DNA from: Jonesia quinghaiensis DSM 15701 | GTDB lineage: Bacteria; Actinomycetota; Actinomycetes; Actinomycetales; Cellulomonadaceae | Assembly (NCBI RefSeq): GCF_000423205.1 | Contig: NZ_AUHN01000006.1 | Coordinates: 372,001-436,000, forward strand | Length of the DNA stretch: 64,000 nt | Direction: 5' to 3' | Shown: positions 28,490-53,665 of the stretch, in pieces | How the letters are laid out: the number at the start of each line of letters is the position of its first letter | Position numbering within the stretch: the first letter of the stretch is position 1 | Made by a program: the position numbers and the translations under genes | Notes under the pieces: model-generated | The model's input: only the letters and a program-made list of their open reading frames with translations | Database searches by the model: none | What the model was told of the DNA's origin: nothing

Positions 28490-28513
28490 TCGAACAAGTG
28501 TTCGTAGTACAGT
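28490..28513 (+). promoter_or_regulatory. LexA (SOS) box and -10 of recA
   Basis: TCGAACAAGTGTTCGT (28490-28505) matches the actinobacterial SOS box TCGAAC-N4-GTTCGA at all but the last base. TACAGT (28508-28513), a TANNNT -10, begins two bases later, so bound LexA would cover the promoter. The predicted leader before recA is about 190 bases. Confidence 0.85.
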
Positions 28514-28712
28514 GGGTTGAGACTGGTTGTCCACATCGAGTTATCGATCTGGTTTTCGTGACCTCTTCCACAGGTTCTCTGTAAGTTCGTGGGGATGTCA
28601 GAGGGGATCGATATGCTCGGTGAAACGTTCGTTGCCTCACCTATGTTGAGTGTGATGACATAACATCCTCGAACCTTGGATGAGGTTCACAACGAAGAAT
28701 GGATTCTCCCAC

Positions 28713-29804
28713 ATGGCAGTTTCACCAGACCGCGAGAAGGCACTGGAAGCCGCACTCGGCCAGATCGACCGACAATTCGGTAAAGGCTCGATCATGCGTC
28801 TCGGAGATGACAATCGGCAAAAGGTTGAGGTTGTCCCCACAGGGTCAATTGCTTTGGACGTGGCTCTAGGTATAGGTGGACTTCCACGCGGTCGCATCGT
28901 TGAGGTGTACGGCCCAGAATCCTCCGGTAAAACAACTGTTGCACTCCATGCTGTTGCCAATGCGCAACGCAATGGCGGCATCGCGGCATTCATCGACGCA
29001 GAACACGCCCTTGACCCCGAATATGCCAAGAAGTTGGGTGTCGACACCGATGCGCTTCTTGTGTCACAGCCAGACACCGGTGAACAAGCGCTAGAGATCA
29101 CCGACATGCTTATTCGGTCCGGTGCTATTGACTTGATCGTCGTTGACTCTGTTGCTGCGCTGGTCCCTAAGGCGGAAATTGAAGGTGAAATGGGAGACTC
29201 GCACGTTGGTCTCCAAGCGCGTTTGATGTCTCAGGCTCTGCGGAAAATCACCGGCGCTCTGTCAACGACAGGAACCACGGCGATTTTCATTAACCAGTTG
29301 CGTGAGAAAATTGGGGTGTTCTTCGGCTCTCCAGAAACAACCACCGGTGGTAAGGCGTTGAAGTTCTACGCCTCAGTGCGCTTAGACATTCGCCGTATCG
29401 AAACCCTCAAAGAAGGATCAGAACCGGTCGGTAACCGCACGCGTGTCAAAGTTGTGAAGAACAAGATGGCTCCTCCATTCAAACAAGCGGAGTTTGACAT
29501 CCTTTACGGGGTGGGAATCTCACGTGAAGGTGGCCTGATCGACATGGGAGTGGAACACGGATTTGTTCGGAAATCTGGGTCGTGGTTCACCTACGAGGGA
29601 GACCAACTTGGCCAAGGGAAGGAAAACGCGCGCAAGTTCCTTCGCGACAATCCTCAACTCGCTGCGGAAATTGAACGCAGGATCAAAGAAAAGTTGGGCA
29701 TCATTCCTCCCACTGAGTCCCCTGACGATGCTCAAGGCGCACCGGTTGCAACTCCACCAGCAACTCCACCAGTGAAGAAAACGGCAGAGAGCAAGAAAAA
29801 GTAG
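28713..29804 (+). CDS. recA: Recombinase RecA
   Basis: RecA forms the strand-exchange filament and acts as co-protease for LexA. The 363-residue product has Walker [10 protein letters not shown] (about 66-74), DAEHALDP, Walker [11 protein letters not shown], the L2 loop region GSPETTTGG, and a Pro/Thr/Lys tail. There is no intein. ATG 28713 is chosen over the in-frame ATG at 28680 because [15 protein letters not shown] is the family N-terminus. Upstream control is the SOS box; recX follows 6 bases after the stop. Confidence 0.98.
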
Positions 29805-43073: not shown

Positions 43074-43826
43074 CTACACAGATCTCAGCACGGACACTAC
43101 TTTTCCGAGAATCTCTGCGTCGTCGCCGAGGATCGGTTCGTACTGCGGGTTATGGGGCATCAGCCATCGGTGACCGCCCTTATTCTTCAGGGTTTTCACT
43201 GTAGCTTCGCCGTCAATCATTGCGGCAACAATTTCACCATTTTCGGCAACGTTTTGACGCCGAACAACGACCCAGTCACCGTCGCAGATCGCGGCGTCAA
43301 TCATTGAATCCCCGCGAACTTCCAACATGTACACATCACCATCTCCTACGAGTTGGCGGGGCAGCTCGAAGACTGCTTCGATGTCTTGCTCTGCCAGGAT
43401 GGGAGAACCAGCAGCGATCCGTCCAACGAGCGGAACTTGGCGAAGGTGCGTCGAGGTAGATTCCTTCGTTTCCTTGCGCTTCGCTGTGCGACCCGTTGCG
43501 CCGCTACGTGATGACGGCGCTCGGGTAAGTGAGGTAGCCCCAGCTGTGTCGCTAGAAGTTGTTTGCATATCGGAATGTTGGGTGACCACCTCAATAGCGC
43601 GTGGTCGGTGTGGATCCCGGCGGAGGTATCCACGCTCCTCTAAAACTTTGAGCTGGTGTTTTACGCTCGATGGGCTGGTGAGCCCGACAGCATGCCCAAT
43701 CTCTCGCATACTCGGCGGATATCCGCGATCAGCGAGGCTATGAGAAATAAAATCGAGGACAGCTGCTTGGCGCGGTGTCAGGGGTGTGGCCTGCACTGAC
43801 GTGCCGGCTGTGGCGACCTTGGGCAT
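43074..43826 (-). CDS. lexA: SOS repressor LexA
   Basis: LexA represses SOS genes until RecA filaments trigger self-cleavage. The 250-residue product has a winged-helix DNA-binding domain (about 15-80, [21 protein letters not shown]), a long Ser/Thr/Lys-rich linker (about 84-130), cleavage site Ala139-Gly140 in GRIAAGSP, catalytic Ser174 in RGDSMID and Lys211 in ATVKTLK. I chose ATG 43826 because GGAG lies 6 bases before it; upstream in-frame ATGs exist. Convergent with ldh, divergent from the LysM gene. Confidence 0.97.
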
Positions 43827-43913
43827 TGTGATCTCCATGTCGTGGGTGGTCAGTATGCGGCGCAGACACGCGCACGATGTCACAGGCTGCTGCTCAAATG
43901 TGTTGTGGTACTA

Positions 43914-43941
43914 ACACTAGGGCAGAACAGGTGATTTTCAA
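43914..43941 (-). promoter_or_regulatory. lexA promoter
   Basis: On the minus strand TTGAAA (43941-43936) and TAGTGT (43919-43914) are separated by 16 bases. The -35 overlaps the neighbouring LexA box, so LexA would exclude RNA polymerase: autoregulation. Confidence 0.65.
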
Positions 43942-43953
43942 ACATATGTTCGA
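43938..43953. promoter_or_regulatory. LexA box 1 (lexA side)
   Basis: TCAAACATATGTTCGA matches TCGAAC-N4-GTTCGA with one mismatch. It overlaps the predicted lexA -35 and is 112 bases upstream of the lexA start. Confidence 0.85.
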
Positions 43954-43995
43954 GCGACACGGCGAGAATCTGTTCCCTGTGTGTAAGAATGTTCG

Positions 43996-44024
43996 TACAC
44001 TTGTTCTAACGAACGTATGTTCGA
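43996..44024 (+). promoter_or_regulatory. Promoter -10 and LexA box 2 (LysM side)
   Basis: ACGAACGTATGTTCGA (44009-44024) differs from the SOS consensus only at its first base. TACACT (43996-44001), a TANNNT -10, lies just upstream so the box covers the predicted transcription start of the LysM gene, 42 bases before its ATG. Confidence 0.8.
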
Positions 44025-47515: not shown

Positions 47516-49732
47516 TCATGCATCATCTTCCGATAAATCACTGAGCCACGGCACCACACGGTCAGTGACGACACACAAATACTGTGTCGGACGAGTGAGA
47601 GCAACAAAGAGGTCTGAAGCGCTGAGTTCTTCGCTCATGCGCTCTGGAGATTCGACGACTACCGCGTCAAACTCCAAACCTTTAGCTTCACGCGGGGTAA
47701 GAATGACAAGACCCGACGGGCGCACCGCGTGTGCACCAGTCTGAACGCTTGCAAGTAACTCACGAACTGCGGCGATTCGGCTTGGTGCACTCAGGACAGC
47801 AACTTGTCCACTATCAGACGTCACATATCGCTCAACGCACCGATTGACCTCAGCGATCAATACGCCATTGCTCTCTTCAGCTTGCGTATGGATGACTGCT
47901 GCTGCATCTGGGATATCACGCGCCGAAGTGAGGGGACTGCTCGACAGTCCTGAGAGCTCAGCAAAACGCATTGCGAGGTCAGCAACTGTGCGCGGGGTTC
48001 GGTAATTGACCGTCAAATCGCGCCGGGTCCAGTGTTCACTGAATAGTGGATCAAACATCGTTGACCATGAGGTTGCACCAGCGGGATCAGATGTTTGTGC
48101 GGTGTCACCCACGATGGTGAAGGAGCGGGTTGGACACCGGCGAATGAGAGATCGCCACGCCATTGCTGAGAGTTCTTGTGCCTCGTCAACAATGATGTGG
48201 CCGTAGGTCCATTCTCGGTCACTTGCCGCTCGTTCAGCCACAGAAAGGCGAGCGCTCGCTCCTTGGAATCGGGCGTGTAAGTCTTCTGCTGAAACTAGAC
48301 CTGCTGCTCCGGTTTGCGCCAGGACGTCTCGCGCATACTCCAACGAACGGTCATCTGTGCGCTGTGTGGTTGTTGGGCGGCTCAGAGGGCCTAGGAGCTC
48401 TTCGGCTTCATCAAGGATGGGGATGTCGGCTTGTGTCCAGGGTGATCCGGCTGGGCGCAAGAGGGCTTGGCGATCTGCGGGGGAGAGGTCTGGCGCAGCC
48501 TCAGCGAGTCGGTGCTCACGTGAGAGTAAGTCGTCGACCAACTGCGCGGCGCTGATAGGGAACCAGGCAAGATTAATGGCGCGGCGGATCCGCTTATCCA
48601 TCCGCAATTCTGTGAGGATATCTCCGCGATCTTCCTCGGCCACATGGTAGGGCATGTCGGCGACATACTGTTGGGCGAGTCGATTGAGCATGTCTTTCGC
48701 GAAAATTTCCCACGTGTCGTTGTGGGGTTTGTTTGCCCGTCGAGCGCGGGCCATTGCGTCTCGTACATCGCGCCGAGAGATGACGATGTCGTGTCCATCA
48801 ATGCGCAGTGTTTCATCGTGCTGGGGCACGCGCTGGCGTGCGCGCACAGCGTTTTTGATGTACTGAGCGAACCGTGTTTCTCCCTTGAGTACTGCACCGC
48901 GCCCGGTGTCGTGTCCGTGCGCGGTGACATGGGGCAGTAGCGCCCCAAGGGTTGTTGAGACGACGCCGGTTTCGCCCAATGATGGGAGAACTTGGTCAAT
49001 GTAGCGTAGGAATTGTTCACTTGGCCCAACGAGAAGCACCCCAGATCGTTCAAGGACGCGCCGGTGCGCGTACAGCAGGTATGCGGCACGGTGGAGGGCA
49101 ACAGCTGTCTTCCCGGTCCCGGGCCCGCCCTGCACAACAACGGCACCTTGGAGAGGTGAGCGGATGATGTCATCTTGTTCTCGTTGAATCGTCGCGACGA
49201 TGTCGCCCATTTTGCCTGTGCGGCCAGCGGATAGCGCAGATAGCAGTGCGCCTTCACCGTGCAGTGTTGTTTGGTCTGTCGATGTGGCGCCGGAGAGATC
49301 AAAAATCTCGTCTTCAACGGCGGTGACCGTGCGCCTCCGGGTCGTGATGTGCCGGCGTTGGCGGACGCCTAACGGGTGCGCCAACGTGGCGCGGTAGAAC
49401 GGCTCAGCTGCTGGTGCTCGCCAGTCCGTCAAGATGGAACGCTGGTTAGCATCAGTCATTCCGATGCGCCCGATGTAACGCGTAGCATCCTCTGTCAGGT
49501 CTAACCGACCGAAAATGAGACGTTCTTCTACGGCTTGCAGCAACGCCAGTCGATCCTCATAGTGGGTTGCAAACGAATCGCGCTCTGAACGATTTTGTGG
49601 CGATCCGCTGGGACCTTCACGGCGAACCTGTGCCAAACGAGTTGAGGCAGATTCACGCAGAGTATCAAGCCTTGCGTATAAGTGGTCGACGATCTGTTGT
49701 TCCTCGACGAGCGCTTCACGATGGTCAGCCAC
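47516..49732 (-). CDS. HelD/HelR-like UvrD-family ATPase
   Basis: A 738-residue superfamily-1 protein. An N-terminal coiled coil (HREALVEEQQIVDHLYARL) inserts into the RNA-polymerase secondary channel in HelD proteins; Walker A QGGPGTGKTAVAL is near residue 199, Walker B IIVDEAQEL near 500, and motif VI LFVALTRPT at the C-terminus. HelD frees stalled RNA polymerase from DNA; HelR variants confer rifamycin tolerance. GTG start at 49732 follows AAAGGA. No obvious rifamycin-associated inverted repeat is seen upstream, so induction by rifamycin cannot be claimed. Confidence 0.88.
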   Translation of the reverse strand: MADHREALVEEQQIVDHLYARLDTLRESASTRLAQVRREGPSGSPQNRSERDSFATHYEDRLALLQAVEERLIFGRLDLTEDATRYIGRIGMTDANQRSILTDWRAPAAEPFYRATLAHPLGVRQRRHITTRRRTVTAVEDEIFDLSGATSTDQTTLHGEGALLSALSAGRTGKMGDIVATIQREQDDIIRSPLQGAVVVQGGPGTGKTAVALHRAAYLLYAHRRVLERSGVLLVGPSEQFLRYIDQVLPSLGETGVVSTTLGALLPHVTAHGHDTGRGAVLKGETRFAQYIKNAVRARQRVPQHDETLRIDGHDIVISRRDVRDAMARARRANKPHNDTWEIFAKDMLNRLAQQYVADMPYHVAEEDRGDILTELRMDKRIRRAINLAWFPISAAQLVDDLLSREHRLAEAAPDLSPADRQALLRPAGSPWTQADIPILDEAEELLGPLSRPTTTQRTDDRSLEYARDVLAQTGAAGLVSAEDLHARFQGASARLSVAERAASDREWTYGHIIVDEAQELSAMAWRSLIRRCPTRSFTIVGDTAQTSDPAGATSWSTMFDPLFSEHWTRRDLTVNYRTPRTVADLAMRFAELSGLSSSPLTSARDIPDAAAVIHTQAEESNGVLIAEVNRCVERYVTSDSGQVAVLSAPSRIAAVRELLASVQTGAHAVRPSGLVILTPREAKGLEFDAVVVESPERMSEELSASDLFVALTRPTQYLCVVTDRVVPWLSDLSEDDA

Positions 49733-51830: not shown

Positions 51831-51878
51831 GGCACTATCACATCACGATCTGACGGGATTTCCGCTATCTTCTCTTGC

Positions 51879-51904
51879 CATCTTCGAACTCTTGTTCGAA
51901 GATG
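51879..51904. promoter_or_regulatory. LexA (SOS) box upstream of dinB
   Basis: TCGAAC-TCTT-GTTCGA is a perfect match to the SOS consensus, inside an 11-bp-arm palindrome (51879-51889, 51894-51904). It lies 70 bases before the dinB ATG and 48 bases before the divergent spermidine-synthase-like start. Confidence 0.85.
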
Positions 51905-51974
51905 TAAAAAGGATGAGGCGCACAAGCGAAACCTGCACTCCACAACACCAACCCACGAAGATCGGAACCACGCT

Positions 51975-53216
51975 ATGAGCAACGCGCCGAGAGAGCTCTC
52001 AGCTCAGCGTGACTGGGGTACCGACGAACAGGGCTTATCAGTGATGCACGTTGACATGGATGCGTTCTATGCATCTGTCGAAATTGCTGATCAACCCGAG
52101 CTGCATGGACGGCCTGTAGTCGTAGCAGGGGGAGAGCGTTCCGTGGTTCTAGCCGCTTCCTATGAGGCAAGAAAGTTGGGCGTGAGGTCCGCAATGCCAA
52201 CGGTGAGGGCCCGTATCTTGGCGCCTCACGCAGTATTTGTCCCTCCGCGTCATGAGCGATACTCCCAGGTCTCACGTGCTGTGATGGCAATGTTGCATGA
52301 TGCTTCCCCAGTAGTTGAGCAAGTATCGATCGACGAAGCCTTTGTTGATGTTTCCGGTGTTCCTGGCGGGCCGGGCGCGCGGTCAGTGCTTGCCAAAAAA
52401 ATCCGAGCACAAGTGGAACACGACCATGCAGTGACGTGTTCAATAGGCATAGCCCGGAACAAATTCGTCGCCAAGCTCGCTTCTACCCAAGCCAAACCCA
52501 ATGGGTTACTAGTAATACCCGATCAACGAACAATCGACTTCCTCCATGTACTTCCCGTTGGGGCGTTGTGGGGAGTGGGGGAGAAGACCGAAAGTCGGTT
52601 GCGCGACTGGGGGATAACACGCGTCGAAGAAATAGCTCGCATGGACGTCACACACCTAGCTCGAATCGTCGGGAACGCTGCTGCAACCCAACTGCATCGT
52701 CTAGCTCACGGCGTTGACGACCGCACAGTAACACCGGGGCGTGAGGAGAAGAGTGTTGGCGCTGAGCACACCTTTACCTGTGACGTGAGTGACCCCCAGG
52801 CGTTGAAAGATCACATGCGCAGTTTGGCTGATCGCGTGGCAAGCCGATTGAGAAGCCTGGGTGTTGTGGGATATGTGGTGAGTATAAAAGTTCGAGATGC
52901 TGATTTCCGAACGACTACCCGTTCAAGAACTCTTGACAGTCCCACAGATTCAACGGCGGTTTTGTTCCACGAAGCGTGGGCGCTTATGGGACGGAACCTC
53001 ACACCAGGACAGCGGGTCCGCTTGGTGGGAATTCGGGTAGAGCGCATCACTCAACGCCGCGATGTCGCTTTTCAAGAGACATTCGACGACGTCCTCGACG
53101 GATCAGCGGACGTGAATCGCCGATCTGATGGTGCCGTCGATGAGATTCGCCGCAGATTCGGAGTAAATGCCATATCTATTGGAGTACAATCGGGTCTTCA
53201 ACTACCCAAGACGTGA
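51975..53216 (+). CDS. dinB: DNA polymerase IV
   Basis: A Y-family translesion polymerase of 413 residues. Catalytic residues: HVDMDAFYASVE (Asp, near residue 28) and SIDEAFVDVSG (Asp-Glu near 120). The fingers/thumb GIARNKFVAKLAS, the helix-hairpin-helix (VGALWGVGEKTESRL) and the little-finger domain follow. The tail ends QLPKT, without a clear QxxLxLF-type beta-clamp motif; GLQLPKT is a possible degenerate one. SOS control is indicated by the perfect LexA box upstream. Confidence 0.95.
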   Translation: MSNAPRELSAQRDWGTDEQGLSVMHVDMDAFYASVEIADQPELHGRPVVVAGGERSVVLAASYEARKLGVRSAMPTVRARILAPHAVFVPPRHERYSQVSRAVMAMLHDASPVVEQVSIDEAFVDVSGVPGGPGARSVLAKKIRAQVEHDHAVTCSIGIARNKFVAKLASTQAKPNGLLVIPDQRTIDFLHVLPVGALWGVGEKTESRLRDWGITRVEEIARMDVTHLARIVGNAAATQLHRLAHGVDDRTVTPGREEKSVGAEHTFTCDVSDPQALKDHMRSLADRVASRLRSLGVVGYVVSIKVRDADFRTTTRSRTLDSPTDSTAVLFHEAWALMGRNLTPGQRVRLVGIRVERITQRRDVAFQETFDDVLDGSADVNRRSDGAVDEIRRRFGVNAISIGVQSGLQLPKT

Positions 53217-53272
53217 TGCCCTCCTCTATCCTTGTAGTAGGGCACCGACGGAGACGAGAATCGGGGGTCGCC

Positions 53273-53665
53273 ATGCCTCTGTCAGAACACGAACAACGCA
53301 TACTTGAACAGCTCGAAAAGGAGCTTCGTTCCGAAGATCCGCGACTTGCATCAACGATGAGCGGGCGTCGAGGATCAACAACGACCCGCTTCGTCATTGC
53401 TGTTGTTGCGCTGGCAATCGGATTAGGACTACTCATCGTCGCGGTGATGACTAGTGCTATCTGGCTTGGTGTAATTGGTTTTGCGGTGATGTTTTTAGGG
53501 GTGACATACGCCCTGTCAGCGCCAAAGAAAAGTGGGCCCGATCTGAGAGTGGTATCCGATTCGGGAGCCACCAAAGGGCGGGCTGCACCACGCAAACAGT
53601 CCAAGCAACAAGGGTTCATGCAACGCATGGAAGAACGATGGGACAAGCGCTCGCGGGGAGAATAG
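53273..53665 (+). CDS. DUF3040 membrane protein
   Basis: A 130-residue family protein of unknown function. The signature PLSEHEQRILEQLEKEL opens the protein, an acidic SEDPRLAST segment follows, then two adjacent transmembrane helices (about 43-62 and 65-84) and a basic, disordered tail. ATG 53273 is chosen from that N-terminus; an earlier in-frame GTG (53213) overlaps dinB. Members sit before mraZ in actinobacteria. Confidence 0.85.
   Translation: MPLSEHEQRILEQLEKELRSEDPRLASTMSGRRGSTTTRFVIAVVALAIGLGLLIVAVMTSAIWLGVIGFAVMFLGVTYALSAPKKSGPDLRVVSDSGATKGRAAPRKQSKQQGFMQRMEERWDKRSRGE

Follow-up and report, generated by a model that had tools for sequence, protein, structure and literature searches.

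The window (the whole stretch of DNA analyzed here, 64,000 nt) carries a dinB gene for DNA polymerase IV (Pol IV), flanked by a divergently oriented spermidine-synthase-like gene on one side and by a gene for a DUF3040 (SCO2097-family) protein on the other (Table 1). Inspection of the interval upstream of dinB reveals a perfect palindrome of 26 bases, CATCTTCGAAC-TCTT-GTTCGAAGATG, in which two 11-base arms enclose a centre of 4 bases. Its core, TCGAAC-TCTT-GTTCGA, is an exact match to TCGAAC-N4-GTTCGA, the box of actinobacterial LexA, which mycobacteria use as well, and the first base of this core lies 91 bp upstream of the dinB ATG. The earlier note had described a 26-base palindrome with an exact core, and both are confirmed at the positions given in Table 1.

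Table 1 Features of the window that bear on the predicted operator upstream of dinB. Coordinates of the DUF3040 gene and of lexA are those of the longest frame.
Feature	Position	Strand	Basis
recA, SOS co-protease	28680..29804	+	TIGR02012, 576.5 bits (cut-off 325.3)
LexA-like box upstream of recA	28490..28505	.	1 mismatch
lexA, presumed repressor	43074..43883	-	TIGR00498, 243.8 bits (cut-off 110.95)
LexA-like boxes between lexA and a divergent LysM-type gene	43938..44024	.	43938-43953, 43993-44008, 44009-44024
Spermidine-synthase-like/methyltransferase-like gene, 320 aa	50868..51830	-	NF037959, 45 bits (cut-off 40)
Presumed -35 element TTGCCA	51875..51880	+	Same position as TTGAC of relatives
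Perfect palindrome, 26 bases	51879..51904	.	11-base arms and 4-base centre
Predicted LexA-type operator (SOS box)	51884..51899	.	Exact TCGAAC-N4-GTTCGA, conserved at the locus
Presumed -10 element GAAGAT	51898..51903	+	Overlaps last two box bases; 17 bases after -35
dinB, DNA polymerase IV, 413 aa	51975..53216	+	NF003015, NF002677, Pfam IMS and IMS_C
DUF3040 (SCO2097-family) gene, 3' of dinB	53213..53665	+	NF058603, 141.5 bits (cut-off 110); synteny

DinB exceeds the cut-offs of both NCBIfam models, scores that identify it as a Pol IV (NF003015, 373.3 bits against 367; NF002677, 323.5 bits against 256). An alignment of 10 sequences backs its start and finds D27, D120 and E121, which we take to be the acidic active-site residues of the DinB family, to be invariant. 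The DinB/YfiT metalloenzyme superfamily, as presented in an excerpt of PMC10693628, is a different family and was set aside. Among the neighbours, the DUF3040 gene is a conserved companion of dinB by synteny, and the product of the 320-aa divergent gene gives weak Pfam methyltransferase matches that fall under cut-off. LexA and RecA are both encoded in the same window as dinB, and the best solved relatives of the window's LexA are the LexA chains 6a2q-6a2t. Positions 47516-49732 encode a HelR/HelD-like RNA polymerase recycling ATPase, for which the best model scores 521.7 bits, under its cut-off of 1100.

We analyzed the flanks of the box across the 67 boxed loci of the family, this one included. 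The operator fills a spacer of 17-18 bases between presumed promoter elements, and its last two bases fall within the -10. TTGAC stands at a fixed place, 17-18 bases ahead of the presumed -10, in 65 of these 67 loci. When rows are aligned on the box, 45 share one spacing and 22 have the element one base further; this genome and its congener G001 belong to the 45 and are the sole two of the 67 to read TTGCC. The -10-like hexamer ends in T at all 67 loci and carries A as its fourth base at 50 of them, where the window has G. Both hexamers of the window are weaker than the conserved flanks of the family, and a general sigma-70 promoter scan called nothing at the window's box site. We count three points against the reading given below, namely the departure of GAAGAT from the family consensus at its fourth base, the -35 sequence TTGCCA and the blank scan. 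The symmetric extension of the core by five bases on both sides occurs at 4 of the 67 loci (this one, L022, L039 and L066). Between the box and dinB lies a frame of 21 codons (51913-51978, ATG to TGA), whose stop overlaps the dinB ATG (ATGA) and which is possibly a leader, possibly a coincidence.

Conservation of the box was examined at 70 family loci, comprising the 30 best dinB matches (this locus included), 3 loci that lack the HEPN gene discussed below, 5 without a dinB match and 32 that cover genera; with 12 further family loci, 68 loci with dinB were examined in all. Of these 68, 67 carry an upstream box with no more than one mismatch, and the one boxless locus (L031, genome G132) also has no detectable divergent gene in its stretch. 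Within the set of 70 there are 67 boxes with at most one mismatch, 55 of them exact; 60 permuted control palindromes averaged 0.05 loci (maximum 1), with no exact match. The gene order at this locus, with box and dinB flanked by the divergent gene on one side and the DUF3040 gene on the other, is that of the relatives. At 64 of the 68 dinB loci, an additional gene with a match to the SAV_6107-like HEPN family (PF18726) stands between box and dinB. For four of the HEPN proteins hmmscan verified membership in PF18726, and all other HEPN assignments were made with a profile built from those four. PF18726 occurs in 192 of 200 family genomes (180 of the 184 with completeness of 90% or more and contamination of 5% or less), and a dinB match at E <= 1e-70 in 183 of the 200. 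This genome has no PF18726 match, at its own locus or anywhere else, and the congener G001 has the HEPN family.

Similar boxes accompany other genes of the same genome. Allowing up to two mismatches gives 7 matches in the window, where shuffled sequences average 3.30 (sd 1.77; 5 of 100 shuffles reach 7); this count is near chance and makes weak matches in the window uninformative on their own. With at most one mismatch the window holds the exact box before dinB and three further boxes with one mismatch each (starting at 28490, 43938 and 44009), so that the description of the dinB box as the sole exact match of four holds if the four are these. The box at 28490 starts 190 bp upstream of the first ATG in the recA frame. 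Between lexA and the LysM-type gene, the boxes at 43938-43953 and 44009-44024 have one mismatch each and that at 43993-44008 has two; the latter two adjoin one another (43993-44024), with the third 40 bases off. Across the 3.04-Mb genome we found 3 exact boxes against 0 for a reversed-pattern control: one before dinB, one before imuA'-imuB-dnaE2 and one within another coding frame, of 580 aa. Up to one mismatch, 24 boxes compare with 6 for the control pattern, and several of the 24 must therefore be chance matches.

The scan for the box and for imuA'/imuB/dnaE2 that the earlier note had proposed thus located a boxed mutasome cassette, on contig C4. The Y-family domain PF00817 has two matches in the genome, dinB and a frame at C4:65832, and DNA polymerase III alpha likewise has two. 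The cassette encodes ImuA' (NF058630, 110.9 bits against a cut-off of 65) and an error-prone DnaE2 (NF004225, 1379.8 bits against 939); the intervening frame is assigned to ImuB by its position and its Y-family match. An exact box at C4:64938 lies 28 bases upstream of the imuA' ATG, a start of our choosing. With imuA'-imuB-dnaE2 behind an exact box of its own, Pol IV would therefore be additional to a boxed mutasome.

We interpret the palindrome as the LexA operator of the dinB promoter, such that dinB is repressed by LexA and induced by DNA damage and the HEPN gene has been lost in this lineage, a reading to which we assign a probability of roughly 0.85 on sequence evidence. Control of dinB by LexA would very probably operate in addition to the DnaE2 mutasome. 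We infer LexA binding, repression and damage induction, as well as loss of the HEPN gene as opposed to its original absence. What stands of the earlier proposal of an SOS-controlled Pol IV is the operator before dinB, the presence of LexA and RecA genes and the retention of the box in relatives, from which such control is predicted. In the mechanism we propose, the palindrome would sit between the two elements (-35 and -10) from which dinB is transcribed, slightly overlapping both. In an undamaged cell, LexA bound to the operator would keep RNA polymerase off; upon damage, RecA would stimulate self-cleavage of LexA, freeing the promoter, and Pol IV would be made together with RecA, LexA and ImuA'-ImuB-DnaE2. 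In most relatives the promoter would lead into the HEPN-protein gene and then into dinB. The present lineage would have lost the HEPN gene but kept promoter and box, such that dinB is now the first gene.

Loci that lack one of the two genes bear on an alternative in which the box survives from the HEPN promoter as a relic, perhaps still bound by LexA, with control of dinB unimportant and set to decay. The box may be selected chiefly for HEPN, which appears able to maintain it alone. Every one of the 14 HEPN genomes that lack a dinB match at E <= 1e-70 was examined; in 11 the stretch contains no dinB, and the box is kept in 8 of the 11 and absent from G024, G059 and G151. Partial dinB matches, possibly decaying genes, are present in three HEPN genomes (G101, G114 and G184; loci L056, L057 and L207), each of which keeps the box. 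Another family, f10, has PF18726 in 113 of 121 genomes and a box upstream of HEPN at 31 of 46 loci, not counting a 32nd match that lies downstream, with dinB in the stretch at 1 of the 46. Where it is present at these f10 loci (L233-L278), the box stands before HEPN and DUF3040. Against a relic, the box lies directly before dinB at 4 of 4 HEPN-less loci, which come from three genera, and it is exact in the window. In genomes G000 (this genome), G079, G119 and G194 (genera g1, g10, g10 and g20), it starts 91, 125, 55 and 157 bp before dinB, respectively; these are four of the five HEPN-less genomes with dinB, the fifth being G134 (dinB E 3.2e-71, no HEPN match). No HEPN remnant was detected in the 75 bases that separate the box from dinB, where alignments to the HEPN regions of G001 and G013 were equalled by 313 of 500 and 282 of 300 shuffles, respectively. 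The box is kept with dinB only or with HEPN only and therefore seems to be maintained for either gene, in a set where many loss cases come from one genus (g20) and the events are not independent.

Boxes near dinB outside the family also argue against a relic, which we consider improbable overall. Of 80 named dinB loci, numerous non-actinobacterial and paralogous genes among them, 11 carry a box no more than 300 bp upstream, compared with a mean of 0.03 (maximum 1) over 60 control palindromes. These 11, with the box directly before dinB and no HEPN between, include loci of Planobispora, Saccharothrix, Lentzea and Geodermatophilus; in one case (L121) the box sits between HEPN and dinB. In Antribacter, Cellulosimicrobium and Cellulomonas the order is box, HEPN, dinB. 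Neither of the two mycobacterial loci of the 80 (L148 and L168, the latter with 223 bases upstream) has a box within one mismatch.

Very improbable, in our judgment, is an operator devoted chiefly to the divergent spermidine-synthase-like gene, or shared by both genes. The earlier note had suggested co-control of this gene. The gene is detected on the far side of the box, divergent from it, at 65 of the 68 dinB loci, and on the minus strand of the window TTTACA-N17-GAAGAT can, in our reading, be made out towards it. The bases T, C, A and A of that -35, however, recur at just 9, 14, 7 and 6 of the 67 boxed loci, and G024, G059 and G151 still have a detectable divergent gene, with box and dinB both gone. 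The flanking position of the gene stands, but relatives do not conserve a promoter directed at it, and a shared divergent promoter was considered and found unsupported by conservation. A chance palindrome, or the operator of some other regulator, is hardly credible: two-mismatch matches do run near chance level in the window, but conservation at the locus far exceeds that of permuted palindromes and the motif recurs at recA, lexA and imuA' of the same genome.

Our preferred reading of dinB as a LexA-controlled gene was compared with known systems. E. coli dinB is SOS-inducible according to an excerpt of PMC9346131, and the window resembles it in that a predicted LexA operator precedes a gene for a Y-family Pol IV. 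It differs in its Gram-positive-type box, its other neighbours and the SOS-boxed imuA'-imuB-dnaE2. The contrast that had been drawn between an E. coli-like arrangement and a mutasome lifestyle is overstated, given the boxed mutasome and the dinB boxes found family-wide and at 11 of 80 loci elsewhere. For Streptomyces venezuelae, the portion of PMC9380542 available gives the LexA motif as tCGAAC-N4-GNNCGa and names dinP (with dnaE2) and pvnz_37135 ('DNA polymerase IV') among targets of LexA and mitomycin C. The likeness lies in the motif and in Pol IV-type genes as LexA targets. However, dinP is listed there beside dnaE2 and may correspond to imuB, whereas dinB of the present family stands beside the dcw cluster. 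The mycobacterial dinB genes belong to the same enzyme family as the window's DinB, and their placement outside the LexA regulon holds roughly: following UV exposure of M. smegmatis, dinB1 and dinB3 are induced, dinB1 independently of recA and dinB3 with partial dependence on it, and dinB2 is uninduced (excerpt of PMC9346131). Unlike recA-independent dinB1, Pol IV in the present family would be placed under damage control beside the DnaE2 mutasome. An excerpt of PMC13388538 holds nothing on the box. SOS control of Pol IV would thus be a known kind of control, family-wide and unexceptional in actinobacteria, of which this genome has a rare HEPN-less version, and loci in nature that have lost one gene or the other downstream of a single box offer a ready comparison of what the box is retained for.

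Less familiar is the placement of an SOS box ahead of a HEPN gene in a large part of the class. PF18726 is found in 196 of 296 genomes of the class, and the box stands upstream of HEPN in 17 of 20 stretches (L213-L232), the longer ones chosen among the stretches listed. In 10 of the same 20, a DUF6504-type match (verified by Pfam for three proteins) lies between box and HEPN, and in 10 a dinB-type match follows further on. These counts make the gene of this little-studied HEPN protein a probable SOS gene throughout much of the class; among open-licence literature, we found no paper describing a SAV_6107-type HEPN gene as SOS-controlled. The SAV_6107 family is listed as actinobacterial, with neither a catalytic (RNase) motif nor noted gene neighbours in the portion of PMC3710099 available. 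A structure model of the HEPN protein built from 3 sequences (pLDDT 80.0) gave no Foldseek match at E <= 0.001, and the best rows were HEPN domains with E of 0.12 and up. Its superposition on 2hsb (VIA) has Z 14.7 and an rmsd of 2.2 over 115 aligned residues, barely above the level frequent for helical bundles.

As a tentative conjecture that we would not yet favour, the promoter beside the dcw cluster might mark an SOS locus that is old within the class. Its characteristic gene would be the SAV_6107-type HEPN, whose product would act in the damage response and perhaps regulate Pol IV or, next to mraZ, division; in this genome a natural deletion would then have uncoupled the induction of Pol IV from HEPN. 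According to an excerpt of PMC5055667, C. glutamicum cg2381, a gene of unknown function, belongs to the LexA regulon and is induced by ciprofloxacin with an M value of 3.86, and mraZ is cg2378. C. glutamicum has matches to PF18726. Because the HEPN gene of the family lies two genes from mraZ-type neighbours and cg2381 is near cg2378, cg2381 is probably, by its position, the PF18726 HEPN protein. As far as that excerpt goes, cg2381 resembles the HEPN genes of the boxed loci, which are predicted to be under LexA control, as a LexA target near mraZ, with no dinB implied there.
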